A stretch of DNA of 64,000 nt from Deinococcales bacterium (GTDB lineage Bacteria > Deinococcota > Deinococci > Deinococcales > JAAFIG01). Shown piece by piece: positions 1,260-64,000 of the stretch (positions are counted from its first letter, which is position 1; every line of letters begins with the position of its first letter). The translations under genes were made by a program, and so were the position numbers. Where the stretch lies: the NCBI GenBank assembly GCA_013298595.1, contig JAAFIG010000013.1, positions 1 to 64,000 on the forward strand, in the 5' to 3' direction. Under the pieces are notes generated by a model. The model saw only the letters and a list, made by a program, of their open reading frames with translations. It had not been told where the DNA came from and did no database searches.

Positions 1260-1589
1260 TCAATCCACAATGAATAACTTTGCGCCAAGGCTTGTTCTCG
1301 AGCGGTGGGCTTCGGCGTTGTCCGCCACTTGATAACTCATACCGGGCTTCAACACAAAAACCCGTCCATCCTCGAGTGTCGTCTCGAGTTCACCTTCTAA
1401 GCACAGCAAAATATGTCCTTTGCTGCACCAATGGTCAGATTCGTAATTCGGGGTGTATTCGACCATTCGCACTCGGATTTCACCAAAATGTTGGGTGCGC
1501 CAGAAGGCTTTGCCTGTTATTCCTGTGTGTTCAGTTGGTTGTATTTGTGTCCAGTCGGTTGTGCCGAATGGAATTTGGGTCATGTTCAT
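1260..1589 (-). CDS. small cupin-fold protein (DHCW-type)
   Basis: A 109-residue single-domain cupin. The body FWRTQHFGEIRVRMVEY, followed by ESDHWCSKGHILLCLEGEL and later LEDGRVFVLKPGMSYQV, matches the small DHCW-motif cupin family, in which the conserved tetrad here reads DHWC. Such proteins bind a metal or small ligand in a beta-barrel; no specific substrate is known to me. It has its own CTCGAG copies and normal composition, so it belongs to the host background, unlike the ORF downstream of it. The start is ATG 1589; a second ATG lies two codons later. Confidence 0.75.
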   Translation of the reverse strand: MNMTQIPFGTTDWTQIQPTEHTGITGKAFWRTQHFGEIRVRMVEYTPNYESDHWCSKGHILLCLEGELETTLEDGRVFVLKPGMSYQVADNAEAHRSRTSLGAKLFIVD

Positions 1590-1625
1590 GATTTTGCCTT
1601 TGCCGATTTGCCTGTGCAGGTCAGG

Positions 1626-1642
1626 GAGGGGATGAACCCCTC
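1626..1642. repeat. short palindrome, dispersed repeat family
   Basis: GAGGGG, a five-base loop ATGAA, then CCCCTC. It sits in the gap between the cupin and the GntR-type regulator and resembles the other GGGG-rich hairpins listed in this window. Confidence 0.5.
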
Positions 1643-1674
1643 TCCTATGAAAATCAAAACCATTGCCATGAACC

Positions 1675-1699
1675 CGTAGGGGAGACCCTTGTGGTCTCC
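1675..1699. repeat. CGTAGG-headed hairpin with CTTGT loop
   Basis: CGTAGG is followed by GGAGACC, loop CTTGT, then GGTCTCC (stem 1681-1687 with 1693-1699). The CGTAGGGG head and the CTTGT loop recur at 55103-55130, so these are copies of one dispersed palindromic element. Confidence 0.6.
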
Positions 1700-1810
1700 C
1701 TGCTGACCAATTGTTAATTGTTGAATACCCATAAATTTTGTTCCTTATTTTTTATTTCTCGAGTATTTTTCTGTCTTGTACCCCGAGATCAGCCTATGGC
1801 GCTTCGTGTG

Positions 1811-2470
1811 TTACGCCCTCGAGTTCCCATTTTTTGTGCCGCGTATTTGTAGTCCGCTTGTGTTCATTAAAGTGTTCAAAAGCCGTTCTCGAGATCGCTC
1901 GAGGTGCGCTTTGATTGCGGCTTCAGCGGCTGTGCTGTCGCGGTTCTGAATCGTCTCGAGGATGCGTTTGTGGTCGGTGACTGCTTTTTGCTGTCCGCCT
2001 TGGGCGTTGGCTTCGTACCAACGGGTGCGGGCAAGGCGTGTCAGTACATCCTCGAGAGCACGGACGTAGAATCCGTTGCCGCTGAGTCGGGCGAGTTCGA
2101 GGTGGAAGTCGGTGGCGCTTCGCATGAAGATTTCGAGGTTTTTGCTGGGTTTCTCGAGGGTTTTTAATAAATTTTTGATTTGGTTTTCTGTGGCGCGTTC
2201 GCAGGATAATTTTGCAGCAGCAATCTCGAGGGTAGCACGGAACTCGAGAGCTTGGCTGATTTCAGCAAAGTCTATGGGGGCAACAATATAGCCGCGTCCG
2301 TCGCGTTGGACTAAGCCTTCGTTTTCGAGTTTGGCGAGTGCGCCGCGTACAGTGGTGCGGCTGGTGTCGAGGAATGTCTCGAGTCCGCGTTCTGTGAGGG
2401 CGTTTCCTGGTGCTAAGTCTAAGCGCAGGATGGCTTCGCGGAGTTTTTCATAGGCTAGACTGGATGACAT
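1811..2470 (-). CDS. GntR-family transcription regulator with FCD domain
   Basis: A 219-residue FadR-subfamily regulator. A winged helix-turn-helix occupies about residues 5-65 (AYEKLREAILRLDLAPG, then TSRTTVRGALAKLENEGLV). An all-helical FCD effector domain follows, with likely metal-ligand positions in DFHLEL, TDHKRIL and KAHLER. The family represses neighbouring metabolic genes until a small carboxylate binds. The gene is divergent from the DinB-like gene at 2537. Two operator-like palindromes lie between them at 2482-2504, so autoregulation and control of that neighbour are likely. The effector is unknown. Confidence 0.88.
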   Translation of the reverse strand: MSSSLAYEKLREAILRLDLAPGNALTERGLETFLDTSRTTVRGALAKLENEGLVQRDGRGYIVAPIDFAEISQALEFRATLEIAAAKLSCERATENQIKNLLKTLEKPSKNLEIFMRSATDFHLELARLSGNGFYVRALEDVLTRLARTRWYEANAQGGQQKAVTDHKRILETIQNRDSTAAEAAIKAHLERSRERLLNTLMNTSGLQIRGTKNGNSRA

Positions 2471-2481
2471 GGCGTACCTAT

Positions 2482-2504
2482 TGGTATACCATTTGGTGTG
2501 CCAA
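2482..2504. promoter_or_regulatory. paired GntR-type operator
   Basis: TGGTATACCA (2482-2491, a perfect palindrome) and TGGTGTGCCA (2494-2503, extended to TTGG...CCAA) lie 12 bases apart centre to centre. FCD-type GntR regulators bind TGGTATACCA-like sites, and these sit between the divergent regulator gene and the DinB-like gene. Confidence 0.7.
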
Positions 2505-2524
2505 ATTTCAAGTCTTTTTTGCGT

Positions 2525-2530
2525 TACACT
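2525..2530 (+). promoter_or_regulatory. leaderless -10 box TACACT
   Basis: TACACT followed by six bases and the ATG at 2537, with no ribosome site. This fits a leaderless transcript and argues for the ATG start over the GTG at 2498, which lies inside the operator. Confidence 0.45.
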
Positions 2531-2536
2531 AACCCT

Positions 2537-2977
2537 ATGACAAATGACTTAGTGAACTTATTTCGGCGTGATCTGGGGAAATTAATTGCGGAACTCGAGG
2601 CGTATTCGTCAGAAGCGGTTATTTGGGCTGTGGCTGGCGAGATTAAAAACTCGGCAGGAACTCTGGTTTTGCATTTGGTGGGTAATCTTAATCATTTTAT
2701 TGGGGTAAAACTGGGTGGTACCAATTTTATTCGTGATCGTGAGGCAGAATTTGCTTTGCGTGACATTCCTCGAGCCGAGTTAATCCAGAAATTGCGCGAT
2801 ACCTTAGCGATGCTCGAGACAACATTGCCTACTTTGGATGCTGCTTCACTCGAGGCTGCATATCCGCTCGAGGTGATGGGATATCCAATGACCACACAAT
2901 ACTTTCTAATTCATTTATATGGTCATCTCAATTGGCATTTGGGGCAAATCAATTATCATCGGCGTTTAATGGCTTAA
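2537..2977 (+). CDS. DinB-like / DUF1572 four-helix protein
   Basis: A 146-residue protein of the DinB-like metal-binding superfamily (DUF1572 type). Histidines sit at the expected places: HLVGNLNHFIG in the first half, and HLYGHLNWHLGQINYHRR at the C-terminus. These proteins are four-helix bundles, some acting as bacillithiol- or mycothiol-dependent transferases; no substrate can be named here. An upstream in-frame GTG (2498) lies within the operator, so the ATG at 2537 is preferred. Divergent from, and probably controlled by, the GntR regulator. Confidence 0.75.
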   Translation: MTNDLVNLFRRDLGKLIAELEAYSSEAVIWAVAGEIKNSAGTLVLHLVGNLNHFIGVKLGGTNFIRDREAEFALRDIPRAELIQKLRDTLAMLETTLPTLDAASLEAAYPLEVMGYPMTTQYFLIHLYGHLNWHLGQINYHRRLMA

Positions 2978-2978
2978 A

Positions 2979-4787
2979 TTAGGTGGGTTGTGGTTTAGGG
3001 CTACGGAATTGCTTGGCGTGCAATTCGGCATATTTTCCGTTTTTCGTCAGCAATTCCTGATGTGTTCCTTGCTCAAGGATTTTGCCATTTTCAAGCACAA
3101 TGATGTTATCAGCATGTTCGATGGTGCTTAATCGGTGGGCAATGACAATGCTGGTACGGGTTTTTAATAGCGTCTCGAGGGCGCGTTGAATCATGGCTTC
3201 GGTGCGGGTGTCTATGTTGGCGGTGGCTTCATCGAGAATAAAAATGCTTGGGTTTGCTAGTATGGCTCGAGCAAATGCCAGTAATTGTCGTTGCCCTTGG
3301 GATAAACCGCTGCCCGCTTCGCCTAGTGGTGTGTCGTACCCTTTGGGTAAAGCGCTGATAAAATCGTGAGCACTGGCGGTCTTAGCTGCTATTTCCACTT
3401 CGGTGTCGGTTGCCTCGAGTTTGCCATAGCGAATATTCTCGCGGATTGTGCCACTAAACAAAAATGGTTCTTGTAAAACCATGGTCATTTGCGAGCGTAA
3501 GCTGGCTCGAGTGATGTTGCGCAGGTCGTGCCCATCTATGCGAATTGTGCCTTGGTTAACATCGTAGAAACGTGGTACTAGGCTGGCAACAGTGGTTTTG
3601 CCTGCGCCTGTTGTTCCAACTAAGGCAACGGTTTGTCCTGCTTTGATATGAAAAGAAATATCGTTAAGTACGAGTCGGTCTGGGTTGTAACCAAAACTCA
3701 CATGGTCAAATTCGATATTGCCTTTGACCGCGCCAAGGGTTTTGGCGTTTGGGGCATCGGCTGGTTCTGGGCGTTCATCGAGAATCGCATAAATCCGTTC
3801 TGCACCAGCTAAAGCACTCTGGGCTTGGGTGTAAATCGAAGATAGTAATTGTACAGGTCGGAAAAATTGTTGCACGTACAGTAAAAATGCAGCGAGAACT
3901 CCCACCGTTAATTGCTTCTCGAGCACTAAATAACCACCGTAGCCAATCACTAAAGCTGTAGCGACAGTACTGAGGAATTCGATAGCTGGCGAGAAAGCAC
4001 TGGTAATGCCAACGGCTTGCACATTGGCATCGCGGTTAGCAGCGTTACGTTGACGAAAACGGTCTATATTGGCTTTAGAGCGATTAAAAGCTTGGGCTTC
4101 TCGAGCACCACCTATTTCTTGTTGAATATCGGCGGTGACATCACCAACAGTTTCTCGAGTTTTACGGTAGGCACTTCTGGCTTGAGCGGCAAAAAGTGCT
4201 GTGGTTAGTAACATCACTGGAATAACCAGAAAGCTAACGATTGCCAGTGGTACATTCAGTAACAGCATGGCAATCAGAATGCCAATTAAACCAAATAAAG
4301 AACCAAATAATTGGGTTAGTCCTTGCCCGAAAAATTGATTGAGGGTGTCCACATCATTGGTGACACGGCTCATCAGATCACCAATTGGTTTTTGATCAAA
4401 GTACCGAAAAGGCAGAGACTGCAAATGCGTAAACAATTTTTTGCGTATGCCAGCCAGGAGCTTTTGGGAAATTACTCCGACCACTTGAATTTGCTGGCTT
4501 GTAAATAATGAACCTAAAATATAAACAACAAATAACTCGAGCATCCGAACTGTCAGACCTGCTGGCTCGAGTTTGGAAATGTTTTCGTCTATGGCACGTC
4601 CAACCAGCCACGGCGCGAGTGCTTGTGAGAGTGCACCAAGTACAACAAGAGTAAAGACCAAAGCTAAACTGGCAAGGTATGGCTTAAATTCAGTGAGCAA
4701 CCGACCAGCCGTTGCGCCTCGGTTTTTGGCACGCTCATTTTCCATTTGTGCCATGCTGGCTAAACTGCCTGGAGGACCACCTCTCAT
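2979..4787 (-). CDS. ABC exporter half-transporter with intact ATPase site (TmrA-like)
   Basis: A 602-residue fused exporter: six-helix transmembrane domain (about 35-330) and ATPase domain (about 355-595). Walker A is GTTGAGKT (391-398), signature LSQGQ (495-499), and Walker B FILDE ends in the catalytic Glu520. Its start codon overlaps the stop of the upstream partner (ATGA, 4784-4787), so the two are co-translated and presumably form a heterodimer, as in Thermus TmrAB. The partner carries Asp instead of the catalytic Glu, leaving this subunit to supply the Walker A/B half of the competent site. The exported substrate, lipid, drug or peptide, cannot be read from sequence. Confidence 0.92.
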   Translation of the reverse strand: MRGGPPGSLASMAQMENERAKNRGATAGRLLTEFKPYLASLALVFTLVVLGALSQALAPWLVGRAIDENISKLEPAGLTVRMLELFVVYILGSLFTSQQIQVVGVISQKLLAGIRKKLFTHLQSLPFRYFDQKPIGDLMSRVTNDVDTLNQFFGQGLTQLFGSLFGLIGILIAMLLLNVPLAIVSFLVIPVMLLTTALFAAQARSAYRKTRETVGDVTADIQQEIGGAREAQAFNRSKANIDRFRQRNAANRDANVQAVGITSAFSPAIEFLSTVATALVIGYGGYLVLEKQLTVGVLAAFLLYVQQFFRPVQLLSSIYTQAQSALAGAERIYAILDERPEPADAPNAKTLGAVKGNIEFDHVSFGYNPDRLVLNDISFHIKAGQTVALVGTTGAGKTTVASLVPRFYDVNQGTIRIDGHDLRNITRASLRSQMTMVLQEPFLFSGTIRENIRYGKLEATDTEVEIAAKTASAHDFISALPKGYDTPLGEAGSGLSQGQRQLLAFARAILANPSIFILDEATANIDTRTEAMIQRALETLLKTRTSIVIAHRLSTIEHADNIIVLENGKILEQGTHQELLTKNGKYAELHAKQFRSPKPQPT

Positions 4788-6595
4788 GATGCACCTCCTG
4801 TTGGGGTTTTCAATTGTGAACCAAGAATTTGATTGTATAACTCCGAAGTCTCGAGTAAATGCTCATGGGTGCCACTGGCTTTCATTTGTCCGTCCTCGAG
4901 CAGTAAAATCAGATCAGCGGTTCGTACTGTGCTAATACGTTGGGCAATCACAAAGGTGGTGCGTTTCTCAGCTGTCATCAGGTGATCGAGCGCATCCTGA
5001 ATCAGTCCTTCGGTTTGGGCATCCACAGCGCTGGTACTATCATCTAAAATCAGCATTCGTGGTTTGACCAACAAGGCTCGAGCAATAGCGATGCGTTGCC
5101 TTTGACCACCACTTAAACCAATACCTCGTTCGCCAACCAAGGTATCGTATTGTTGCTGGAGTCCAGTGATAAATTCGTGGGCTTGAGCAGCTTTAGCAGC
5201 CATCATCACATCATCTAAACTGGCTTCTGGTTTGCCATACGCAATATTTTCGCGGATAGTGCCGCTAAATAATGTTGAGTCTTGTAAAACAATACCGATT
5301 TGGCTGCGTACACTCGAGAGTTGCAAGTCGCGTAAATCATAACCATCGAGGGTAATATTGCCTTGGCTGACATCATAAAAACGTGGAATCAAATTGGTTA
5401 AACTCGATTTTCCACTGCCTGTTGCCCCTAGAATAGCCACCACTTGCCCAGCTTTGACTTGAAAAGAAATGCCTTTTAAAACAGCTTTTTCTGCGCCAAC
5501 ATAGCGAAAATCTACATTGTTAAATTCGACATTACCTTGTAAAGCAGGTAGCACCTTGGCATTGGGTTTATCTTGTACATCTAAAGGCGCGTCCAGTACT
5601 TCAAAAATACGTTCAGCACTGGTGCCAGCTCGAGCTAAACCAGCCGCTAAGAAACCTAAGGTAAAAATGGGTTGTAACAAAAAAGCAAGGTAAGAATTAA
5701 ATGCTAATAGTTGCCCTAAACTCAGTGCCTGACCGATCACTTGAAAACCGCCGTACCACATCACGGCTAACGTACCAAGGTTGCCAAAGAAAATCACAAA
5801 GGGAAAAATTGTGGCAATGCCTTTAATTGTTACGACATTTTTCTCGAGCAATTCCTGATTAGCCTTCTCGTAGCGGGTGGCTTCAAAGGCTTCTCGAGCA
5901 AAGACACGCACCACTTTTAAGCCACGTAAATCCTCTTGAAGTACGGTATTTAATTTACCTAATGCCATTTGCACTTGTCCAAAGCGTGGTCCGATGGTGC
6001 TCACAAAGCGAAATAACAAGTAAAACACAGGTGGTATGGTGGTTAAAACAACCAATGTTAGCGACCAATTAATTGCCAGTAGCACCACAAATGTACCGAT
6101 CAGTGTTACCAATGCAGCAATAATTTGTACAATGCCTGTGCCAATAAAACCCCGTACCGCTTCGACATCCGAGGTTAAACGCGTTACCAAATTACCAGTT
6201 TGGGCTTGGTCGTAATAACTAAAACCAAGGCGTTGCAATTTTTCAAATAACGTTTCACGTAAATCAAATGCCACACCTTGCGAAACCCGCTCGGCTAAAT
6301 AACCTTGTAAAAAAGTAAACAAACCTCGAGCTACAGCTGTGCCAATTAAGCCCAGCACAGCGGTTAAAACAACATTAGATTGTCCTTTGGCAATACCTTC
6401 ATCCACTGCTATGCGAATCAGTTGTGGTGCAAATAAACTTGTTACGGTCACTAAAATCAGGGAAAGCAAAGCCGCTAAAGCCGCTAATTGGTAAGTTCTT
6501 AAATATGTTAAGGCTCGAGTGATTGCTTTAAAAGCCCCTGGCGATGGCGCACCAGGGCGGGCAGTTGCTGATGGACGAGCCGCAGAGTTGTTCAT
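4784..6595 (-). CDS. ABC exporter half-transporter with degenerate site (TmrB-like)
   Basis: A 603-residue partner of the next gene. It has a transmembrane domain (about 35-325) and an ATPase domain with Walker A GATGSGKS (390-397), canonical LSGGQ (494-498) and Walker B LILDDS, where Asp519 replaces the usual catalytic Glu. One degenerate site is the hallmark of heterodimeric exporters such as TmrAB, BmrCD and TM287/288. A short Ala/Pro-rich tail precedes the first helix. The gene is preceded by a TATGCT box (reverse strand, 6604-6609) eight bases before the ATG and a small hairpin at 6601-6621. First gene of a two-gene operon. Confidence 0.92.
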   Translation of the reverse strand: MNNSAARPSATARPGAPSPGAFKAITRALTYLRTYQLAALAALLSLILVTVTSLFAPQLIRIAVDEGIAKGQSNVVLTAVLGLIGTAVARGLFTFLQGYLAERVSQGVAFDLRETLFEKLQRLGFSYYDQAQTGNLVTRLTSDVEAVRGFIGTGIVQIIAALVTLIGTFVVLLAINWSLTLVVLTTIPPVFYLLFRFVSTIGPRFGQVQMALGKLNTVLQEDLRGLKVVRVFAREAFEATRYEKANQELLEKNVVTIKGIATIFPFVIFFGNLGTLAVMWYGGFQVIGQALSLGQLLAFNSYLAFLLQPIFTLGFLAAGLARAGTSAERIFEVLDAPLDVQDKPNAKVLPALQGNVEFNNVDFRYVGAEKAVLKGISFQVKAGQVVAILGATGSGKSSLTNLIPRFYDVSQGNITLDGYDLRDLQLSSVRSQIGIVLQDSTLFSGTIRENIAYGKPEASLDDVMMAAKAAQAHEFITGLQQQYDTLVGERGIGLSGGQRQRIAIARALLVKPRMLILDDSTSAVDAQTEGLIQDALDHLMTAEKRTTFVIAQRISTVRTADLILLLEDGQMKASGTHEHLLETSELYNQILGSQLKTPTGGAS

Positions 6596-6600
6596 GGTTT

Positions 6601-6621
6601 TGTAGCATACCCTGTGCTACA
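6601..6621 (-). promoter_or_regulatory. -10 box within a small hairpin upstream of exporter operon
   Basis: TGTAGCA and TGCTACA form an inverted repeat separated by seven bases. Read on the minus strand it contains TATGCT (6609-6604), eight bases before the ATG at 6595. This is a probable promoter and possible operator. Confidence 0.4.
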
Positions 6622-6622
6622 A

Positions 6623-6654
6623 AAAATCTCGAGGCTTAATTGCCTCGAGATTTT
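6623..6654. terminator. bidirectional terminator with CTCGAG in the stem
   Basis: A 13-base perfect stem (6623-6635 with 6642-6654) with a six-base loop and T-runs on both strands. It ends the membrane-protein gene at 6667. Each arm contains CTCGAG. Confidence 0.85.
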
Positions 6655-6666
6655 GTTTTTGTGTCT

Positions 6667-7617: not shown

Positions 7618-7730
7618 GATATTCCTCCGAATAAATATAATCCGATAGGAATCATAGCGAGGATTTTCTATTTGGCTGGTCAAAAATCACATCACGGTAG
7701 GGTTTGCAGTACAAAGCTGGTTACACTTGA

Positions 7731-7952: not shown

Positions 7953-7958
7953 GTCTCG

Positions 7959-7964: not shown

Positions 7965-7968
7965 ACAC

Positions 7969-26182: not shown

Positions 26183-26277
26183 CACTTGCGTTTCAGTGCG
26201 CTAGAGGCTTGGCTGAAAAAGCGAGGAGCAAGCCAAATTTATCGGTTGATACGGAAAAAGATTTTGTGGAACGCAAT

Positions 26278-26337
26278 GGGGCGAGGCTTCTTGACCATAT
26301 ACACGTACCTGACGGGTATGGTCGCATGCCTCGCCCC
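26278..26337. repeat. large nested palindrome of the GCGAGG family
   Basis: GGGGCGAGGC (26278-26287) pairs with GCCTCGCCCC (26328-26337). Inside, GACCATA (26293-26299) pairs with TATGGTC (26317-26323). The right end reads on into CTACG, the complement of the CGTAG head seen in other copies. Lies between the regulator and the DUF4139-like gene, possibly doubling as terminator of the latter. Confidence 0.65.
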
Positions 26338-26350
26338 TACGATTAATTGT

Positions 26351-34241: not shown

Positions 34242-36314
34242 GTGGGTTTATTCATTACGATAGTGGCGGGTCTATTAGCGATTGTTGCTGGGGCGGCTTT
34301 AACGGCGAATATTCTCAGAAAGCCTGATGGCAATGATCGGATGCGGGCAATTGCAGCAGCCATTCAGGAAGGTGCTAGTGCGTATTTGCAAAAGCAGTAC
34401 ACAGCCGTAGCTGTTGTGGCTGTGGTGATGTTTGTGATCCTTGGTTTTGGTTTGAATTGGCTGACAGCGATTTATTTTATGGTGGGTGCTGTGGCTTCAG
34501 GTGCGGCTGGTTTTATTGGTATGAATGTGGCTGTGCGTGCCAATGTCCGCACGGCACAAGCTGCTAATGACGGGCTTGGCGCTGCGATGCAAGTGGCAAC
34601 TTGGGGTGGCGCTGTAACTGGTTTATTTGTGGTTGGTTTGGGCATTTTGGTGCTTGGATTGCTGACCCAATTTTCACCTTTGATCGAAGGTCGAATTAAT
34701 CCAGATGCGTTAATTGGTTTGGGGTTTGGTGCCAGTTTAATCAGTGTTTTTGCCCGTCTTGGTGGTGGTATTTACACCAAAGCTGCCGATGTCGGAGCCG
34801 ATTTGGTGGGTAAAGTTGAAGCGGGTATTCCCGAAGACGACCCACGGAACCCAGCAGTAATTGCTGATAATGTTGGCGATAACGTTGGTGATGATGCTGG
34901 TATGGCAGCTGATTTATTCGAGACATTGGTCGTAACAGCCATTTCTGCGATGCTTCTTGGGCATTTGGTGGCTGGTGGTAATGACACATTGGTTTGGTTA
35001 CCGTTAATTATTGGTTCAGTTGGTATTCTTGCCAGTATTGTTGGGGTTTTTGCTGTTACGCCACCTAAAGATGGTTCGCAAATTATGAATAGTTTGTACC
35101 GTGGTGTTTGGGTCTCGAGTATCTTGTCTCTGATTGGGTTTTTCCTGATTATTAATGTGTTTGGTATGGTGAACGTAACGGGGGCTAAGTTACCCAACGG
35201 GGCGGATTTAACCAATTTCAATTTATTTTTGGCAAGTACAGTGGGTGTGGCTGTCACACTTGGGTTAATGTATATTACCGATTACTACACAGCTTCTGGT
35301 TATGCTCCAGTGCGTGGCATTGCCAAAGCCAGTATCACAGGGCATGGCACCAATATCATTGCTGGTTTAGCTGTTGGTATGAAAGCCACTGCTTTTCCTG
35401 TACTGGTGATTGTGGCTGGTACATTGGTGTCGTTTAGTTTTGCTGGTTTGTACGGCGTGGCAATTGCTGCAATGGCAATGCTTTCGTTGTGCGGCATTAT
35501 TGTTACTGTGGATGCTTTCGGACCGATTACCGATAATGCTGGTGGTATTGCTGAAATGGCAGAGATGGGTGAAAACGTTCGTAATGTCACAGACCCACTA
35601 GATGCTGTTGGTAACACCACTAAAGCTGTAACCAAAGGCTACGCAATTGGTTCGGCTGGTTTGGCTGCATTGGCATTATTTGCCGCTTACACTGCCGAAT
35701 TCGAGAAACTTGGTAAAACCATCACCTTTGATTTATCCAATCCTTACGTGATTGCTGGTTTATTGATTGGTGGTATTTTGCCTTGCTTATTTGCTGCTAT
35801 GAGTATGGAAGCTGTAGGGCGAGCCGCAGGTGCTGTTGTGCTCGAGGTGCGTCGGCAATTTCGAGAAATGCCTGGCATTATGGATGGTAGTCAAAAACCA
35901 GACTATCGTCAGTGCGTGGGTATTGTGACCGAAGCAGCCTTAAAGGAAATGCGTATTCCCGCGATTTTGCCTGTGGCTGCACCAATTATTGTTGGGTTTG
36001 CACTTGGGGCACAAGCCTTAGGTGGGTTGTTGGTTGGTAGTATCGTGGTAGGTATTTTTATGGCAATCCAAATGACCACGGGTGGTGGTGCTTGGGATAA
36101 CGCCAAAAAGTACATTGAATCAGGCGATCTCAAAGACGAAAATGGTGTGGTGCTGAAAAAAGGCAGTTTCGCCCATCAAGCCGCTGTTACAGGCGATACA
36201 GTTGGCGATCCATATAAAGATACTGCTGGTCCAGCAATCAACCCTATGATTAAAGTGATTAACATTGTTGCTTTGCTGATTGTGCCATTGTTGGTGCAAT
36301 GGGGCAGATTCTAA
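34242..36314 (+). CDS. hppA: membrane-bound proton-pumping pyrophosphatase
   Basis: A 690-residue, about 16-helix ion pump that hydrolyses pyrophosphate. Catalytic motifs: [39 protein letters not shown], and a C-terminal [18 protein letters not shown]. The K+-dependence determinant reads GNTTKA, with Lys at about residue 461. In this family a Lys there, instead of the Ala of K+-dependent enzymes, marks K+-independent H+ pumps. The GTG at 34242 with AAGGGG upstream is preferred; the longer in-frame TTG overlaps the promoter and adds a non-membrane tail. Ended by the terminator at 36327-36362. Confidence 0.95.
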
Positions 36315-39362: not shown

Positions 39363-40606
39363 ATTATCTCGAGTTACAACAAAAAATCCTTCCCGAACTT
39401 CATCTTCTCGCCACCAAAGCTGGGGTGGAAAACGCTAAAGACTTTGAAAAAGAGGCTTTGGTGCTGGCTATTCTCGAGAAAAACGCGCTCGAGGATGGGT
39501 TTAGTTTGGCTCAGGGTTTTTTAGAAATTTCTGAGGATGGGTATGGTTTCTTGCAGGATTCTTTGCTCACCCCAGAGTCGCGTAATGTGATTGTGTCAGC
39601 TGGGCTAATTAAGCAGTTTCAGTTGCGAACAGGTGATTATGTGGTGGGTGTGGCGCGTCCGTCAAAGGAGATCGAGCGTTTTAATGCCATGATTCGGGTT
39701 GAAGCAGTCAATTCTCAAGACCCAGCAGCAGCAGCGTTGCGTCCTAAGTTTGATGATTTGATTCCCGAGCATCCAGATTCGCAAATTGTGCTCGAGACTG
39801 ATGGGGCAACTGTGGCTTCGCGGGTTGTGGATTTGCTTGCGCCAATTGGTCGGGGTCAGCGTGGTTTGATTGTTGCGCCGCCTAAAGCTGGTAAGACCAC
39901 GTTGCTGAAACGTATTGCTAATAGTATTACGGCGAATCATCCTGAAATTAAGGTGATTGTCTTGCTGGTGGATGAACGCCCCGAAGAAGTCACAGATTTC
40001 CGTGAGTCTGTCACCAGTGCCGAAGTTGTTGCTAGTACCTTCGATGAACCACCCGAAAATCATGTGCGGGTTGCCGAATTTGTCCATGAGCGCTCGAGGC
40101 GGATTGTTGAAGAGGGCGGGCATGTGGTGATTTTGTTGGATAGCATCACGCGTTTGGCTCGAGCTAATAATTTGGTCACACCTGCGACGGGGCGTACTTT
40201 GTCGGGCGGTTTAGATAGTAATGCGTTGTATTGGCCCAAGCGTTTTCTGGGTGCGGCGCGTAACATCCGTGGTGGTGGTAGTTTGACCATTTTGGCAACT
40301 GCATTGGTCGAAACTGGCTCGAGAATGGATGATGTGATTTTCGAGGAGTTCAAAGGTACAGGTAATATGGAGTTGCATCTTAGCCGTCGTCTCGAGGAGC
40401 GGCGGATTTTCCCTGCAATTGATATTCTTAAAAGCGGTACGCGCCGAGAGGAATTATTGTTGCAAACCGATGTGCTGCATAAAATGTGGTTGCTGCGAAA
40501 AGTGATTTCAGATATGGATCCTGCTGAGGCAATGGAAATGTTGCTCGAGCGTTTGAACCGCACGGAGAATAACAAGGAGTTCTTATCGCAGTTAGCAGGT
40601 GGCTAA
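39359..40606 (+). CDS. rho: transcription termination factor Rho
   Basis: A 415-residue hexameric RNA helicase that ends transcription. Rho N-terminal helices and RNA-binding domain (about 1-115, with YGFLQDSLLTPESRNVIVS). P-loop APPKAGKT at 173-180. LLVDERPEEVTDFRESV, HVVILLDSITRLARANN, and GSRMDDVIFEEFKGTGN with the secondary RNA site. Starts with GTG at 39359, overlapping the stop of the upstream A+T-rich ORF; AGGAG is seven bases upstream. Two bases separate it from ispD. Confidence 0.97.
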   Translation: MNYLELQQKILPELHLLATKAGVENAKDFEKEALVLAILEKNALEDGFSLAQGFLEISEDGYGFLQDSLLTPESRNVIVSAGLIKQFQLRTGDYVVGVARPSKEIERFNAMIRVEAVNSQDPAAAALRPKFDDLIPEHPDSQIVLETDGATVASRVVDLLAPIGRGQRGLIVAPPKAGKTTLLKRIANSITANHPEIKVIVLLVDERPEEVTDFRESVTSAEVVASTFDEPPENHVRVAEFVHERSRRIVEEGGHVVILLDSITRLARANNLVTPATGRTLSGGLDSNALYWPKRFLGAARNIRGGGSLTILATALVETGSRMDDVIFEEFKGTGNMELHLSRRLEERRIFPAIDILKSGTRREELLLQTDVLHKMWLLRKVISDMDPAEAMEMLLERLNRTENNKEFLSQLAGG

Positions 40607-40608
40607 TC

Positions 40609-41262
40609 TTGATTTCGGTGTTGATTCCAGCGGCGGGTAGCGGTGAGCGCCTTGGTATGGGTGCAAAAGCGTTGCTCGAGTTGCGTGGTAAGACTTTGCT
40701 CGAGCGGGCAGTGCAAGCTTTTGCGGGTATTGCAACCGAAATTATTGTGGCTTTGCCCGAAGCGAATCTCGAGTTGCTGGTGCAGAATGCTCGAGTGGTT
40801 GGTGGTGGGGCGACGCGTCAGGAGAGTGTGCAGAATTTACTGGCGGCTGCCACTGGCGATATTGTCTTAATTCATGATGCGGCTCGCCCTTTTTTGCCTC
40901 GAGAAGTGATTGAACGGGTGCTCGAGGCTGTGCAACGCGTCGGAGCAGCAACCGCAGCTCTACCTGTTGCGGATACTTTGGTGCTCGAGGATTCAGGCAA
41001 TTGGGGGCAGGTTACGGATCGGTCAAAGATGCGAGCAGTGCAAACACCTCAAGGTTTTAAGCGCAGTTTATTGCTCGAGGCGCACCAAAAAGCGTTGCTT
41101 GAAGGTGTTAGTGCCACCGATGATGCTGGTTTGGTGGCAAGGCTGGGTTTGCCAGTAGCGTTGTGCTTAGGCGATGAACGTTTATTCAAAGTTACTCGAG
41201 CTGGTGATTGGGCTTTGGCAACGGCATTTGCCGAGGTTTGGGATAACGGGTTAAGCTCTTAG
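40609..41262 (+). CDS. ispD: 2-C-methyl-D-erythritol 4-phosphate cytidylyltransferase
   Basis: A 217-residue nucleotidyltransferase of the MEP isoprenoid pathway, joining CTP and methylerythritol phosphate. SVLIPAAGSGERLGMGAKAL carries the CTP loop. VVGGGATRQESVQN, LIHDAARPF and PVADTLV are further family motifs, and TDDAGLVARLG is near the end. The usual Lys of the N-terminal motif sits at KALLELRGK. TTG start directly after rho. Co-transcribed with ispE, the next-but-one step enzyme. Confidence 0.93.
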   Translation: MISVLIPAAGSGERLGMGAKALLELRGKTLLERAVQAFAGIATEIIVALPEANLELLVQNARVVGGGATRQESVQNLLAAATGDIVLIHDAARPFLPREVIERVLEAVQRVGAATAALPVADTLVLEDSGNWGQVTDRSKMRAVQTPQGFKRSLLLEAHQKALLEGVSATDDAGLVARLGLPVALCLGDERLFKVTRAGDWALATAFAEVWDNGLSS

Positions 41263-41265
41263 CTC

Positions 41266-42114
41266 ATGGCTTATAACGTGCAAACCATTACCGAATTTGC
41301 TCCAGCAAAAATCAATCTTGGCTTAGCAGTCACGGGTCGGCTCGAGAATGGGTATCACACTTTGGATACCTTGTTTTGTACCTTGGATGTTGGTGACACG
41401 CTTACTCTCGAGCCAATCGAATCGGGTATTGAACTGACAGTGCTGGGTTTGGATCTACCAACTACTCGAGAAAACCTTGTCTACCGCGCTGCTGAAGCGT
41501 ACTTAGCAGCGGCTGGCATTCCTTCTGGCATCCGAATTACGCTCGAGAAACGCTTGCCAATTGCGGCTGGGCTTGGTGGTGGCTCGAGTGATGCAGCCGC
41601 AACGTTGCGTGGCTTAGAGCGTTTATTTCCTAGGGATTTAGATTTGCACAGTATTGCTAAAAAACTTGGTGCGGATGTACCTTTTTTGCTCGAAGGTGGT
41701 GCAGCTCGAGCTTCTGGTATTGGGGATATTCTCGAGCCAGTTCAGTTACCCGAAATTCATGTGGTGCTGGCAAATCCCAATGTTGGCATTACAGCTAAAG
41801 AAGCTTATGTTGGTTTGCAAGGTCGGTTTGGTGCACCGCTCGAAATGGCAGCTATTCTCGAGGCATTACACAATAAAACCATTCCGCCTTTTCGCAATGA
41901 CCTTGAAGCACCAGTGCTCGAGGTTTATCCAATTGTGCAAACAGTCAAAAATGTGTTGTCCAAAGCGGGTTTGTACGCTGTACTGATGAGCGGTTCGGGA
42001 AGTACATGTTATGGGTTAGCGCAAACTGCCCAACGAGCTAATGAAATTGCAACGGCATTACAACTCGAGTTTCCAAATTGGTGGGTTCGAGCTGCTACAA
42101 ATAAATACTTCTAG
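41266..42114 (+). CDS. ispE: 4-diphosphocytidyl-2-C-methyl-D-erythritol kinase
   Basis: A 282-residue GHMP kinase of the MEP pathway. EFAPAKINLGLAVTGRLENGYH at the N-terminus, ATP loop PIAAGLGGGSSDAAATLRGL, and LMSGSGSTCYGL near the C-terminus. Three bases after ispD. The gene is rich in CTCGAG. The following 20 bases contain a half-copy of the GCGAGG repeat. Confidence 0.96.
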   Translation: MAYNVQTITEFAPAKINLGLAVTGRLENGYHTLDTLFCTLDVGDTLTLEPIESGIELTVLGLDLPTTRENLVYRAAEAYLAAAGIPSGIRITLEKRLPIAAGLGGGSSDAAATLRGLERLFPRDLDLHSIAKKLGADVPFLLEGGAARASGIGDILEPVQLPEIHVVLANPNVGITAKEAYVGLQGRFGAPLEMAAILEALHNKTIPPFRNDLEAPVLEVYPIVQTVKNVLSKAGLYAVLMSGSGSTCYGLAQTAQRANEIATALQLEFPNWWVRAATNKYF

Positions 42115-42134
42115 CAGCGAGGCGTACCTTGACT

Positions 42135-42629
42135 TCATGTCTCGAGCAGTGCATTTAATCTATGCCAAGCAATTCTCGAGATTTGCCTAATGGCTTCTTG
42201 TTGTTCTGCTTCTGGTTCGAGGTTGTAACGGCGTTTGAATTCGCTAAGGATTTGCTTGAGGTTATGGTCGCGGACAGCAATAATAAATGGGAATCCAAAT
42301 TTGGTTTTATAACTTTGGTTTAAGCCCGAGAATTCTGCGAACAGTTCTGGACTGAGGTTATTCAGTCCTAAGCTGCTTTGCTCAGTCACGCTGTGTTGAC
42401 TCATACCAAGTTTGGTACCAAGGTCTGGGTGCTTGCGGATTAACTCGAGTTGTTGGCTGTTGCTACTGATTTGTACCGTGTGTTGCATGGTGTTATGTAA
42501 TTGCTCGAGGCTCGAGAATGGACGATTGGTATAAATGGTTTTGGCTACCCATGATGAATCTTCGTAAATGCTGCCCAAAGTAGCAATAAAGGCTGTTTCG
42601 GGCAGGGTGTTTACTTCGGTTAGGGTCAT
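42135..42629 (-). CDS. uraD: OHCU decarboxylase (ureide pathway)
   Basis: A 164-residue helical enzyme that decarboxylates 2-oxo-4-hydroxy-4-carboxy-5-ureidoimidazoline to S-allantoin in purine breakdown. IRKHPDLGTKL with its catalytic His, SVTEQSSLGLNNLSPE and FGFPFIIAVRDHN are signature motifs. No other urate-pathway gene is in the window. Its ATG directly abuts the stop of the upstream PrcB-domain gene, so it may be the second gene of that transcript. Confidence 0.92.
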   Translation of the reverse strand: MTLTEVNTLPETAFIATLGSIYEDSSWVAKTIYTNRPFSSLEQLHNTMQHTVQISSNSQQLELIRKHPDLGTKLGMSQHSVTEQSSLGLNNLSPELFAEFSGLNQSYKTKFGFPFIIAVRDHNLKQILSEFKRRYNLEPEAEQQEAIRQISRIAWHRLNALLET

Positions 42630-56880: not shown

Positions 56881-56882
56881 GA

Positions 56883-57846: not shown

Positions 57847-58325
57847 AACCCCGGGACTCGAGTTCCGCCGCGTCCATCCCAGCCATTAAAACCATAGAAA
57901 CGTCCTGCTAAACCTGTGTTTAAGTAATCCAGCAATGGGTCGCGCATGGGTACAGGTCCGAGTTTTTCAACAGCTTCTTTAGGATCAAAAAACCGTGCTT
58001 CGACAATAAAACCATCAGGGTCTCGAGGGTTGAGTAAACCATCCCATTCGACATCGAAAGCAAAGACAATGGTGCGTTCGTTTTTCATCTCATCTTCGAT
58101 ATGCACGCTGTACGCCAAGCAGTTGACATGTTTAACTTTTAACCCTGTCTCCTCGAGTACTTCGCGTTTCACAGCTTGTAAAGCAGTTTCACCATGTTCA
58201 ACCATACCACCTGGTACGGTGTAGCGCACCCGTCCTAAACCCTGCCAATCGTTGGCAACCAACAGCACCCGACCCATTTTGTCACGTAAGACTGCGGCAG
58301 CAACCAAAAGTTCACGCCGAGCCAT
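57843..58325 (-). CDS. Nudix hydrolase
   Basis: A 160-residue pyrophosphohydrolase of nucleoside-diphosphate-linked compounds. Nudix box GMVEHGETALQAVKREVLEE followed by TG fits GX5EX7REUXEEXGU. Flanking sheets contain VAAAVLRDKMGRVLLVAND and IVFAFDVEWDG. Substrate unknown; house-cleaning is common. Its ATG shares a base with the stop of prfA (TAATG). Confidence 0.9.
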   Translation of the reverse strand: MARRELLVAAAVLRDKMGRVLLVANDWQGLGRVRYTVPGGMVEHGETALQAVKREVLEETGLKVKHVNCLAYSVHIEDEMKNERTIVFAFDVEWDGLLNPRDPDGFIVEARFFDPKEAVEKLGPVPMRDPLLDYLNTGLAGRFYGFNGWDGRGGTRVPGL

Positions 58326-59425: not shown

Positions 59426-59433
59426 AACTCGAG

Positions 59434-59439
59434 AGTCTA
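59434..59439 (-). promoter_or_regulatory. short-leader -10 box TAGACT (prfA)
   Basis: TAGACT on the minus strand eight bases before the prfA ATG. Confidence 0.35.
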
Positions 59440-59578
59440 CCGTTTCTGGAGGGGTTTGTGCTAAGGACGGAGGTCGGGACGAAAGAAAAAGGATTAATAG
59501 AGGGATAAGTTCACAAACGAGTAGCTAGAAGCTAACCGCCAAATCTTGCTAGACTGGTCTGACTTATAAGGGGGCATC

Positions 59579-61732
59579 ATGTTTGAACTATCTTTACTCG
59601 AGAAGATTGCTTTTATTTTAGTGGCTGGTTTTTTTGGTTCTTGGGCATTATTGTATTTTGCTCGGATTTACCAAGCCATTGCTCGAGGCAGTGCAGATTC
59701 TGAAGATCGGTTCGATAACTTACCAAACCGAATTGGTGCGGCATTATGGGCAACACTTTTACAAACTCGAGTTTTCCGAGATCGTTTCTGGGTCAGTGTT
59801 TTACATGCGGGGATTTTCTTTGGGTTTACTTATTATTTATTGGTTAATGTTGTAGATGGACTCGAGGGTTTCTTTGGTTTTCATGTGCAAAGTAATACTT
59901 GGTATACTGCTTTGTATTTGCTCAGTGCAGATTTATTAACAGGAGCGATCTTACTGGGTGTCATAAGCTTGTGGATACGCCGATTTTTTACCTCGAGTGG
60001 CGAAAAAACCTTTTCTTTTAATCCGCGAACATTGTTACATGAAGCTATTCAAAACGGCAAAATTCGTTCAGATAGTGGCATTGTTTCAGGATTTATTACC
60101 TTCCACGTCGGTATGCGTTTTCTTGGGCAGGGTTTAAAGTTGCTCGAGTCTGGAACAAACCCAGATTTATTTCAACCATTTGCTTCGTTATTGGCTGGGG
60201 CATTAACAACGCTGGGTTTATCTGAACAAGCTTTAATTTCAGGTTTGCATTTTACATATTGGGGAGCACTTGGCAGTATTTTGGTTTTTCTGCCTTACTT
60301 TGCCCGTAGTAAACACATTCACATTGCCACAGCACCAATCAATTATGCACTCGAGCGTCGTCGTGATGGACAGGTACTCTCGAGCGGAGTCATTCCACTG
60401 ATGGATCTGAGTAGTCTCGAGCAGGACGAACCTAAAGTTGGTGCTTTACGGCTCGAGGATTTATCATTTCCTAGGTTACTCGATGCCTATGCTTGTATTC
60501 AATGCAATCGCTGCCAAGATGTTTGCCCTGCCAATGCCACTGGCAAGGCGTTATCGCCAGCTGCACTCGAGATTAATAAACGCATGGAATTAAATTCCTT
60601 AATTGGCAGCCCATTCGAGTTACGCCCAAGTTTCTTGGCTGGCGAGGCATCTCCCAGACCACTACTCGAGTTTGCCATTAACGAAGAATCGGTGTGGGGT
60701 TGTACCACTTGTGGCGCTTGTATGCAGGTCTGCCCTGTCCAAGATGAACAAATGCTCGACATTATAGATATTCGCCGTGAACGTGTAATGATGGCGGGTG
60801 AATTCCCGAAACAATTGCAAACCGCTTTTACAGGTATGGAACGCCAAGGCAACCCGTGGGGCATCAGTGCCGACAAACGTATGGATTGGGCAGATGGTTT
60901 AACTGTTCCAACCATAGACCAAAACCCAAATCCAGATGTCTTGTATTGGGTTGGTTGTGCTGCCAGTTACGACCCCAGCGCACAAAAAGTCTCGAGAAGC
61001 TTTGTGCAACTTTTGCAAGCTGCCAATGTTAATTTTGCTGTACTAGGCAAAAAAGAAAGTTGTACAGGCGATACAGCACGGCGTAGTGGCAACGAGTACT
61101 TGTACCAAGAACTTGCAACAAAAAATATTGCTACTTTAAATAGTCTGCAACCCAAACTGATTGTGGCAACGTGTCCGCACTGCATGAATATGATTGGTAA
61201 CGAATACCCGCAACTGGGTGGCAATTATACTGTCATGCACCACACAACCTACCTCGAGCAATTGGTTTCCGATAAACTGCTTGCCACGGGTGATTTCTCG
61301 AGTGGTAATGTCACGTATCACGACCCTTGTTATTTAGGACGACATAACGATGTCTACGATGCACCAAGGGAAAATTTACGCAGTCTTGGTTTTGATATTC
61401 TTGAACTCGAGCGTTCACGTGAAAAAAGTTTTTGTTGTGGTGCTGGTGGTAGCCAATTCTGGAAAGAAGAAGAACATGGTACCGAACGTATCTCGGACAA
61501 TCGAATGCGAGAAATTAAACAAACCGTGGCTGGAGAAGCCACCAAAACAGTGGCAGTTGGTTGCCCATTTTGTAAATCCATGTTAGCCAGTACCCCAGAA
61601 GCTCAAGATAGTGGTGTGGCTATCAAAGACATTGCTGAACTGATGCTCGAGAATCTTGAAACTGGACGCAGCAAAGGTGTGATTGTATCGCCAAAAGTAC
61701 CCTCGAGTATTGGCATCAGTGGTGATGATTAG
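59579..61732 (+). CDS. membrane Fe-S oxidoreductase (HdrD/FadF-like)
   Basis: A 717-residue electron-transfer protein. N-terminal half: about five helices with histidines suited to haem b (NarI-like). Two [4Fe-4S] motifs follow: Cys306-309-312-316 and Cys375-378-381-385. Two CCG domains come at the C-terminus (VGCAASYDPS... and CPHCMNMI; FCCGAGGSQFW). This is the architecture of proteins that pass electrons from ETF or similar donors to quinone, such as FadF. The donor gene is not in the window. AAGGGGG ribosome site. Confidence 0.9.
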   Translation: MFELSLLEKIAFILVAGFFGSWALLYFARIYQAIARGSADSEDRFDNLPNRIGAALWATLLQTRVFRDRFWVSVLHAGIFFGFTYYLLVNVVDGLEGFFGFHVQSNTWYTALYLLSADLLTGAILLGVISLWIRRFFTSSGEKTFSFNPRTLLHEAIQNGKIRSDSGIVSGFITFHVGMRFLGQGLKLLESGTNPDLFQPFASLLAGALTTLGLSEQALISGLHFTYWGALGSILVFLPYFARSKHIHIATAPINYALERRRDGQVLSSGVIPLMDLSSLEQDEPKVGALRLEDLSFPRLLDAYACIQCNRCQDVCPANATGKALSPAALEINKRMELNSLIGSPFELRPSFLAGEASPRPLLEFAINEESVWGCTTCGACMQVCPVQDEQMLDIIDIRRERVMMAGEFPKQLQTAFTGMERQGNPWGISADKRMDWADGLTVPTIDQNPNPDVLYWVGCAASYDPSAQKVSRSFVQLLQAANVNFAVLGKKESCTGDTARRSGNEYLYQELATKNIATLNSLQPKLIVATCPHCMNMIGNEYPQLGGNYTVMHHTTYLEQLVSDKLLATGDFSSGNVTYHDPCYLGRHNDVYDAPRENLRSLGFDILELERSREKSFCCGAGGSQFWKEEEHGTERISDNRMREIKQTVAGEATKTVAVGCPFCKSMLASTPEAQDSGVAIKDIAELMLENLETGRSKGVIVSPKVPSSIGISGDD

Positions 61733-61801
61733 CAGTCTCGAGTTTGAAGTGGTTTTATTGGATTTGTACCAGAATTTACCACCACTCGAGTCAGATGAAA
61801 T

Positions 61802-62260
61802 TTAAATCACAGGTTCGAGTGGTTGATGTTCAAACAGCGTTGATAGTGTCACTAACGTATTGGTACGAATTACACCAGGCACTTGTTTAATTCGGTAGAG
61901 TAAATTCTCGAGTTCGTGTGGGTTAAAGGCACGCACTTTTAAAATCACATCTAAGTCTCCTGCAACGCTATGACATTCTTCGATTTCGGGTAACTGAATA
62001 AAATTCGCCGCTACAGCTAAACCATTAGAGTTATTTTCTAAACGAATTTGAATAAAAGCCAAAGTGCTCAGTCCAACTGCTGGAGCATTAATACGAGCAC
62101 CATAACCCGAAATAATCCCGCGTTTCTCGAGGTTTTTGACTCGAGCGTGTACTGTGGCGGCACTCAAGCTAACCTTTTGGGCGATATCGGCGTAGGTTTG
62201 GCGACAGTCTTGTTGTAGCTCTTTGAGGATACTGCGGTCAGCTTCATCTAACTGAATCAT
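61802..62260 (-). CDS. Lrp/AsnC-family regulator
   Basis: A 152-residue feast/famine regulator. Helix-turn-helix: MIQLDEADRSILKELQQDCR, then TYADIAQKVSLSAATVHARV. Ligand-sensing RAM domain: ISGYGARINAPAVGLSTLAF and SVAGDLDVILKVRAFN. It probably binds an amino acid. It is divergent from an EamA transporter with 68 bases between starts, so it likely controls that transporter. TAGAAT six bases before the ATG indicates a leaderless mRNA. Confidence 0.92.
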   Translation of the reverse strand: MIQLDEADRSILKELQQDCRQTYADIAQKVSLSAATVHARVKNLEKRGIISGYGARINAPAVGLSTLAFIQIRLENNSNGLAVAANFIQLPEIEECHSVAGDLDVILKVRAFNPHELENLLYRIKQVPGVIRTNTLVTLSTLFEHQPLEPVI

Positions 62261-62266
62261 ATTCGG

Positions 62267-62272
62267 ATTCTA
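62267..62272 (-). promoter_or_regulatory. leaderless -10 box TAGAAT (Lrp-type gene)
   Basis: TAGAAT on the minus strand, six bases before the ATG at 62260. Confidence 0.5.
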
Positions 62273-62293
62273 GCACATAAGCAGAACCACGTA

Positions 62294-62321
62294 TTGACGA
62301 AACAGGATTTCTTCACATATT
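62294..62321 (+). promoter_or_regulatory. leaderless promoter of the EamA gene
   Basis: TTGACG (62294-62299), 16 bases, CATATT (62316-62321), then seven bases to the ATG at 62329. The best -35 among the leaderless set. Confidence 0.55.
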
Positions 62322-62328
62322 GTTAGCT

Positions 62329-63243
62329 ATGACTACTGCCGCAGCCACCACACCTAAATCTCGAGATACTTTGCTGATAATTCTAGCGCTGATTTCACTT
62401 TACTTTATTTGGGGCAGTACCTACTTAGGTATTCATCAAGCAGTACAAACTGGAGGATTTGCCAGTTTTCAATTAAATGCCCTGAGATTTATTTTTTCAG
62501 GTGTTTTACTACTTGGTATTTTAATGGCTCGAGGTGGCAAAATTCCGCCAGCTATTCAAATTCGTAACGCTGCCCTGATTGGTTTATTTTTAGTGATTGG
62601 TGGTAATGGCTTAACAACTTTAGCCTTAAAATGGGGTGCACCCAGTGGTTTAAGTGCCACAATTATCGCTACCACGTCCCTCTGGGCTGGTTTATGGAGC
62701 ACACTTTGGGGTAACCGTCCACGTAAACTCGAGTGGATTGGTATGGGCATTGGTGTGATTGGTGTGGCAGTGCTGACCTTTGACGGCAACCTTCGCAGTA
62801 ATCCAGCTATTTTCATTCAATTTGCTGCACCAATGCTCTGGGCACTTGGCAGTATTTTGTCACGCAAACTCGAGATGCCATCTGGACTGATGGCAAGTGC
62901 TATCGAAATGATCGCTGGGGGGTTAGCGGCACTGCCAATCAGTTTTGCCCTTGGCGAAACATGGGCAATGCCAAACCTCAATGCTTGGGGCGCTTGGTTG
63001 TATTTGGTTTTTGCGGGCAGCATGATTGGTTATAACGCCTATATATTTTTACTCGAAAAAGTCCGCCCAGCCGTGGCAACTAGTTATGCGTATGTTAATC
63101 CTTTGGTTGCACTTGGCTTAGGGGCATGGTTGATAGGCGAAAAAATCGAAGCCAGAACGCTACTCGCTTTACCAATTATTTTTATTGGTATGGGATTTAT
63201 TGCTTGGGCACAAAATAGTAAAGGGATCAAGGAAAAAGGGTAA
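62329..63243 (+). CDS. EamA/DMT-superfamily transporter
   Basis: A 304-residue ten-helix permease formed by two EamA repeats: LISLYFIWGSTYLGIHQAVQTG starts the first, and FAAPMLWALGSILSRKLEMPSG the second. RhaT/YdcZ-like exporters of amino acids or metabolites have this fold. Divergent from the Lrp-type regulator, suggesting amino-acid export. ATG 62329 preferred over TTG 62320, which falls in the -10 region. Confidence 0.9.
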   Translation: MTTAAATTPKSRDTLLIILALISLYFIWGSTYLGIHQAVQTGGFASFQLNALRFIFSGVLLLGILMARGGKIPPAIQIRNAALIGLFLVIGGNGLTTLALKWGAPSGLSATIIATTSLWAGLWSTLWGNRPRKLEWIGMGIGVIGVAVLTFDGNLRSNPAIFIQFAAPMLWALGSILSRKLEMPSGLMASAIEMIAGGLAALPISFALGETWAMPNLNAWGAWLYLVFAGSMIGYNAYIFLLEKVRPAVATSYAYVNPLVALGLGAWLIGEKIEARTLLALPIIFIGMGFIAWAQNSKGIKEKG

Positions 63244-63296
63244 GGTCAAACTGTACTCACTTTTCTTTAAGCCATAGAGTTCATGTTAGGAGCAGT

Positions 63297-63632
63297 ATGA
63301 ATCCACATTTTTCTTTAAGTACACTTGAAAAAAGCCGTCTCGATGAGCAAAAAAACTATCTCGAGTTTCTGCGTGTTCCTGATATGAGCGCAGGTTTGTA
63401 TGTGCTTGAGGTAGGAGCAACAGATCTTCAACAGCCGCACTCCGAGGATGAAATTTATGTTGTTCTTGAAGGCAAAGCCCAGATTCGAGTTGCCGATAAA
63501 GATTACCCTGCTTGTGTAGGTGACACGATTTTTGTACCTGCTAAGGTGGTTCATTACTTTCATAGCATTCTCGAGACACTGAAAGTCATTGTGATTTTTG
63601 CACCTGCAGAATATGCTCGGCAGGGATTATGA
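63297..63632 (+). CDS. cupin-domain protein
   Basis: A 111-residue cupin. Metal motif 1 in QQPHSEDEIYVVLEGKAQIRV and motif 2 in GDTIFVPAKVVHYFHSI give the expected His/Glu/His set. Function unknown, possibly a small dioxygenase or binding protein. AGGAG precedes the ATG. Its stop overlaps the start of the flavodoxin-fold gene (ATGA), so the two are translated together. Confidence 0.85.
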   Translation: MNPHFSLSTLEKSRLDEQKNYLEFLRVPDMSAGLYVLEVGATDLQQPHSEDEIYVVLEGKAQIRVADKDYPACVGDTIFVPAKVVHYFHSILETLKVIVIFAPAEYARQGL

Positions 63633-64000
63633 ATTATCTTTTTCTGCTTGCCAGCCCTCGAGCCAATGGCAATAGCGAAACATTAGCGCGAATTGCGGCT
63701 CAAAGCCTTTCAAATCAAACGCAACAATGGCTTGCTTTACGCGATTACCCACTCGAGCCATTTGCTGATTTACGACATGTTGCACCAATCAACCCAGATT
63801 TTCCATTATCAGGTGGGTATGGGCAACCAACAGGACATTCAAAAGCTTTGCTCGAGACGACATTGGCTGCCACAGATATAGTTTTTGTTGCCCCAGTACA
63901 TTGGTACTCGGTGCCGACGTTGTTAAAACGTTACTTAGACGAATGGAGCGCGTGGCTTCGTATTCCAGATGGGACGTTCAAAGCGCAAATGAGCCAGAAA
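63629..64000 (+). CDS. flavodoxin-fold NAD(P)H-dependent oxidoreductase, N-terminal part
   Basis: First 124 codons of an FMN reductase-like protein: MNYLFLLASPRANGNSETLA carries the flavin phosphate loop (SPRANGNS). VFVAPVHWYSVPTLLKRYLDEW is the conserved second motif. Runs off the right edge. Co-translated with the cupin. It might act as quinone or azo reductase; the pairing with a cupin hints at aromatic or quinol chemistry, which is inference only. Confidence 0.87.
   Translation, partial: MNYLFLLASPRANGNSETLARIAAQSLSNQTQQWLALRDYPLEPFADLRHVAPINPDFPLSGGYGQPTGHSKALLETTLAATDIVFVAPVHWYSVPTLLKRYLDEWSAWLRIPDGTFKAQMSQK

Follow-up and report, generated by a model that had tools for sequence, protein, structure and literature searches.

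Genome-wide iteration of the palindrome CTCGAG in an uncultured Deinococcales family

We analyzed a 64,000-nucleotide stretch of DNA (the window; positions 1 to 64,000 of contig JAAFIG010000013.1, assembly GCA_013298595.1) from a Deinococcales bacterium and the hexamer CTCGAG, which recurs along it. A previous reading of the letters alone (the sequence-only reading) had counted 38 copies between positions 1261 and 6660 and had expected several hundred as far as the right edge. An exact count reproduced the 38 and gave 388 for the window, compared with no copies of GAGCTC, a hexamer of the same composition. The sites were present at 6.2 per kb in open reading frames (ORFs) and 5.3 per kb between ORFs, and 204 of the 291 Leu-Glu dipeptides were written CTCGAG. 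The range of the sites and the local extremes of their density are listed in Table 1; the low density of the sparsest 2 kb may reflect a scarcity of Leu-Glu dipeptides there.

Table 1. Extent of the CTCGAG sites in the window and segments of extreme density
Feature	Coordinates	Strand	Remarks
CTCGAG set, 388 copies	1297..63856	.	Direct count; first at 1297, last at 63851; mean 6.1 per kb
Densest 2 kb, 24 CTCGAG	40151..42150	.	Covers the end of rho and the genes after it
Sparsest 2 kb outside the CTCGAG-free stretch, 2 CTCGAG	34251..36250	.	Within membrane pyrophosphatase gene
CTCGAG-free stretch, 30% G+C	1..1296	.	329-aa ORF of no known family; outside the feature

In the whole genome (G000; 4.58 Mb in 68 contigs), CTCGAG occurred 27,159 times and GAGCTC 15 times, giving a CTCGAG density of 5,930 per Mb (i.e., about 6 per kb, or one per 165 bp). 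Statistics beyond whole-genome counts rest on approximately 1.3 Mb of G000. A 464-kb sample (45% G+C) held 2,854 copies, an excess of 31-fold over base composition and of 61-, 15-, and 3.1-fold over first-, second-, and third-order Markov models, respectively; the last value is low because a third-order model learns the motif's own tetramers. When motif copies were masked, the first- and second-order models predicted 54 to 70 copies (70 for the second-order model), compared with 5,708 observed on both strands, which corresponds to an excess of about 80-fold under the masked second-order model. Among all 64 palindromic hexamers in the sample, CTCGAG alone was in strong excess. TTGCAA ranked second (2.3-fold), none besides CTCGAG exceeded 2.4-fold, and most were below 1, many of them near zero. 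The sequence-only reading had noticed no other palindromic hexamer at a similar density and had likened the pattern to cyanobacterial HIP1; both impressions were borne out. It had also said that an observed/expected ratio near 1, or an excess of many hexamers, would speak against the idea, and the Markov comparisons gave neither.

Avoidance of other palindromes in the same sample was extreme. GGCC was found 17 times and CCGG 108 times (1,215 expected for each); CTTAAG, AGGCCT, GGGCCC, and CGGCCG were absent; and TTCGAA and GAGCTC had two copies each. Most GC-containing palindromic hexamers were avoided across the CTCGAG-rich genomes; two relatives described below (G008 and G004) showed no such avoidance.

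The genome-wide excess of this one word and its conservation across a clade make CTCGAG a highly iterated palindrome (HIP), the densest described to our knowledge. HIP1 (GCGATCGC) and the alternative HIPs (GGCGCC, GGGATCCC, and TCGATCGA) of cyanobacteria are likewise single palindromes in gross genome-wide excess. HIP1 reaches 300 to 2,700 copies per Mb, and the function of cyanobacterial HIPs is debated (PMC4390886); selection on HIP1 is supported by Xu et al. 2018, as cited in PMC6604393. CTCGAG differs from HIP1 in being a hexamer, in the phylum that carries it, in its density of 5,930 per Mb, in that no shared methyltransferase was found, and in that a short-range exclusion was measured. 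Nor is HIP1 proper, with its CGATCG core and cyanobacterial host, present in disguise: CGATCG occurred at 0.08 times its expected number, and the host belongs to Deinococcales. A literature search of limited extent found no paper on a CTCGAG HIP in Deinococcota, in agreement with the earlier remark that this is not a textbook case.

The excess is shared by close relatives. The four genomes of the uncultured family (G000 and the other members, G001 to G003) each held 26,600 to 28,200 copies of CTCGAG and 4 to 15 of GAGCTC. Their sampled G+C contents were 45, 47, 60, and 55%, while the density of sites stayed at 5.0 to 6.5 per kb; this independence from G+C would follow if CTCGAG is near saturation. 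G001 (JAAFJQ01) and G003 (JANXTZ01) are public metagenome-assembled genomes deposited as "Deinococcales bacterium," which bears out the Deinococcota-like lineage guessed from the letters. The agreement between independent assemblies from different studies argues against an artifact. In a neighboring genus, which belongs to another family of the order, G012 had 21,868 CTCGAG and 25 GAGCTC, and G016 had 14,690 and 2. The counts were 13,552 and 1,196 in G008, and G004 had 683 CTCGAG. The excess in G008 was partial and almost limited to the Leu-Glu frame (observed/expected, 4.1), with no avoidance of palindromes, a state that is possibly early, decaying, or unrelated.

The CTCGAG excess acts at the level of DNA and not of protein. 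In G000, the density was 6.2 per kb in coding and 5.9 per kb in intergenic DNA (6.0 in a larger intergenic sample), and it was flat around gene starts. Codon choice depended on whether the hexamer could be completed: a Leu codon was CTC in 75% of cases when Glu followed and in 8% when another residue did, a Glu codon was GAG in 76% of cases after Leu and in 18% elsewhere, and CGA made up 72% of Arg codons in the context NCN-Arg-GNN and 16% elsewhere. In total, 1,474 of 2,159 Leu-Glu pairs (68%) were CTCGAG, whereas codon usage predicts 32 (1.5%), a 47-fold difference. Across the three frames, 68, 64, and 38% of the synonymously possible sites were realized. Leu-Glu is a common dipeptide, and CTC GAG is frequent in GC-rich halophilic archaea largely for that reason, which would favor reading the word as a by-product of codon usage, amino acid content, or base composition. 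For the family, the 47-fold excess, the presence in all frames, the equal intergenic density, and the near absence of GAGCTC refute it, and we give it practically no chance.

Those archaea were examined as a possible second case and set aside. Natrialbaceae (G063 to G075) carry 3 to 4 CTCGAG per kb and few GAGCTC, yet they exceed codon usage only 1.1- to 2.4-fold, so theirs is not the same phenomenon; most of their sites are accounted for by codon usage and a general excess of TCGA, and the value of 2.4 over codon expectation comes from one Natrinema plasmid. CTCGAG is not listed in published single-molecule real-time methylomes of Natrinema and Haloterrigena. When species genomes were scanned for other lineages that iterate CTCGAG, mainly chance matches came up in addition to Natrialbaceae. 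The low-G+C viral contigs that were inspected as CTCGAG-rich matches proved to be repeat arrays; a GC-rich contig (L423) was a further match.

The sites are also maintained over evolutionary time. An alignment of 64 kb with G001 (73% identity) showed that 67% of CTCGAG sites were conserved; the figures were 20% for other hexamers and 23% for CG-containing hexamers matched for G+C. Conservation of sites in relatives, proposed earlier as a check, is well above the background. The corresponding values for CTCGAG and other hexamers were 35 and 12% for G002 and 51 and 14% for G003. States one substitution away were found at 5% of CTCGAG sites, compared with 33% in matched control hexamers. Among Leu-Glu codon pairs, CTTGAG (2.1-fold) and CTCGAA (1.0-fold) were not depleted, while CTGGAG, CTAGAG, TTGGAA, and CTGGAA were depleted to 0.06- to 0.12-fold. 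In a separate count, all three transition neighbors of CTCGAG stood at 2.1- to 2.5-fold. Such a neighbor pattern is expected when abundant sites decay with a bias toward transitions. From the natural logarithms of the Leu-Glu enrichment ratios, and assuming equilibrium, the scaled advantage of CTCGAG in G000 would be approximately 3 to 4.

Near-saturation in all frames and between genes, together with rare one-off intermediates, is also expected from a functionless molecular drive, in which site-biased mismatch repair or gene conversion (Vsr-like or other) turns near-matches into CTCGAG with no benefit to the cell. Very-short-patch repair by Vsr with Dcm (CCWGG) can likewise enrich a palindrome. 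Here, a search for Vsr found none in the family, and the neighbors that T:G repair could convert (CTTGAG and CTCGAA, above) are precisely those that are undepleted; depletion falls on transversion forms and on those two or three changes away. Furthermore, such a drive does not obviously predict the exclusion below 12 to 18 bp that is described below. We consider a functionless drive improbable.

A solitary methyltransferase was among the causes suggested by the sequence-only reading, and a methylation-linked origin of HIPs has been proposed (Elhai model): an orphan methyltransferase marks the word, and sites arise and persist through methyl-directed mismatch repair or some other process that depends on methylation. 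A matching methyltransferase is nearly always present with cyanobacterial HIPs (PMC4390886), and orphan CTCGAG methyltransferases exist in Nocardia (PMC4752239), where the word is the same but clusters at the replication origin instead of being uniform as it is here. We searched 21 genomes in six frames for five Pfam families (Eco57I, DNA_methylase, N6_N4_Mtase, MethyltransfD12, and N6_Mtase) and compared the hits all against all. Within these families, no methyltransferase was common to all CTCGAG-rich genomes or shared by the four family members, although these five do not include every kind of methyltransferase, and enzymes that are not homologous may recognize the same word. The sets of enzymes differed between CTCGAG-rich genomes, and the most widely shared was one C5 enzyme in G000, G001, and G012. 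In G000, this enzyme is an orphan and resides on the chromosome (contig 15, approximately 67.9 to 69.0 kb); the G001 protein is 74% identical, with the same neighbor gene and no adjoining endonuclease. The relative in G012 is 59% identical and is followed by an HNH endonuclease gene. Neither G002 nor G003 has a counterpart, despite equal CTCGAG density, and with genome completeness of 91 to 94%, two of the four assemblies would seldom both lack an ancestral enzyme by chance. No C-to-T excess relative to T2 was found at the motif cytosines C1 or C3, so there is no 5-methylcytosine decay signature, and methylation alone does not predict short-range exclusion.

Restriction-modification of the XhoI/PaeR7I type recognizes the same word; however, restriction would favor avoidance rather than excess, and a search for the XhoI endonuclease (PF04555) found none in the family. 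The XhoI-type methyltransferase was also tried as a driver and rejected. Its profile was strong only in G009, G015, G025, and G037 (i.e., G009 and three genomes that appear to be Meiothermus-like), all of which lie outside the family. Since two further Meiothermus-like genomes with high CTCGAG counts are without it, its presence and the excess do not go together. The proposal of a solitary methyltransferase as the cause is thus not supported, and we regard a methylation-linked HIP as possible but unlikely.

Several genes of these kinds were seen outside the family. In G009 (contig 1, approximately 1.094 to 1.096 Mb; L028 to L030), a XhoI gene broken by stops or a frameshift adjoins an intact methyltransferase gene, and no enzymes similar to the product of the latter were found in the family; in G018 (contig 125; L025/L092), a XhoI gene lies beside an N6_N4_Mtase methyltransferase of a class unlike that in G009. 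A C5 methyltransferase gene adjoins a Vsr gene in G008 (contig 11, 83962 to 85231; L066 and L476), and the two are approximately 3 kb apart in G010 (contig 7, 79274 to 83456).

Nearby sites exclude each other. Leu-Glu pairs were CTCGAG in 23 to 26% of cases when the nearest other site was 7 to 11 bp away and in 76 to 79% when it was 80 to 160 bp away. For neighboring Leu-Glu pairs in G000, both were CTCGAG in 9, 14, 13, and 31% of cases at 9, 12, 15, and 18 bp, respectively, compared with 46% expected at the genome-wide rate; the correlations ranged from -0.47 to -0.20 and were gone by 21 to 36 bp. Pairs 6 bp apart carry no information here, since that spacing would produce GAGCTC, itself an avoided word. 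G003 agreed at 9 to 12 bp, and the other two family genomes offered few cases. Intergenic pairs at 12 bp or less were depleted as well (20 versus 44.5 ± 6.2 expected). In G000, counts of CTCGAG pairs rose from 27 at 0 to 9 bp to a plateau of approximately 460 by 80 to 90 bp. A footprint of about 12 bp is firm; one of 18 bp is seen in coding DNA only.

Near-saturation of the DNA, conserved sites, exclusion at short range, a density that ignores gene position, and the lack of a shared methyltransferase in the families searched are best explained in combination. We favor, with somewhat less than even confidence, the reading that selection, or a repair or conversion bias with a selection-like effect, keeps CTCGAG in the DNA as the site of a putative sequence-specific DNA-binding protein or complex. 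Such a protein would recognize the hexamer, probably by binding as a symmetric dimer, and would cover approximately 12 to 18 bp, and every place permitted by the code would tend to gain CTCGAG unless another site lay within the footprint. Ubiquitous spacing that is independent of gene position would suit a chromosome-wide role (e.g., nucleoid architecture, strand marking in repair, or self-marking) rather than gene regulation. Protein binding had been put forward by the sequence-only reading; it fits better than a methyltransferase given the short-range exclusion, which is indirect evidence for it. The fuller version is a methylation-independent HIP: the whole chromosome, genes included, would be written with sites about once per 165 bp, wherever code and footprint allow, and an abundant protein of chromosome architecture or repair would bind them. 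This version is distinctly doubtful.

Several observations count against a protein site. No CTCGAG-binding protein was identified, and if a protein bound the sites tightly, it would be strange for their density to stay level across promoters. It is asking much of selection to act strongly on 27,000 sites, and an equilibrium of much the same kind would result from a process driven by repair. Intergenic pairs at 13 to 20 bp were not depleted (55 versus 47.4 ± 6.5 expected); since intergenic exclusion is clear only to 12 bp, codon context may cause part of the coding effect beyond that distance. The spacing of the sites, when tested, showed no helical or longer periodicity.

A DNA uptake sequence or a Chi-like recombination signal is a further alternative. 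Both are typically dense, conserved words, and Thermus and Deinococcus relatives are naturally competent. One copy per 165 bp is far above what uptake fragments need, CTCGAG is palindromic, orientation-free, and only 6 bp long, and most relatives in the order have no such iteration. Such a signal is very improbable.

The CTCGAG-free left end of the window is probably imported, and the ORF in it had no Pfam or PHROGs match. Contig 34 of G000 contains a 13-kb island (approximately 70 to 83 kb; L242:1-13200) that is mostly 27 to 41% G+C and poor in CTCGAG, whereas the adjoining native DNA has approximately 7 sites per kb; the island is a natural marker of recent transfer. The lack or scarcity of CTCGAG in imported DNA suggests that sites are gained slowly after entry. 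Separately, positions 26276 to 26341 of the window hold an inverted repeat (TGGGGCGAGGC...GCCTCGCCCC) that is a member of a dispersed family; G001 and G003 each show numerous partial matches.

HIP1 has been without an explanation for three decades. The family described here provides a second, independent, and several-fold denser HIP in another phylum, with close relatives that differ in G+C content and in methyltransferase sets. The comparison distinguishes the essential element (a DNA-level force on the word) from one that is possibly incidental (a given methyltransferase). CTCGAG overrides codon choice in approximately two thirds of Leu-Glu codon pairs, which is unusual in scale. A protein that reads the word, if found, would explain a force that shapes every gene in these bacteria and would guide the search in cyanobacteria.

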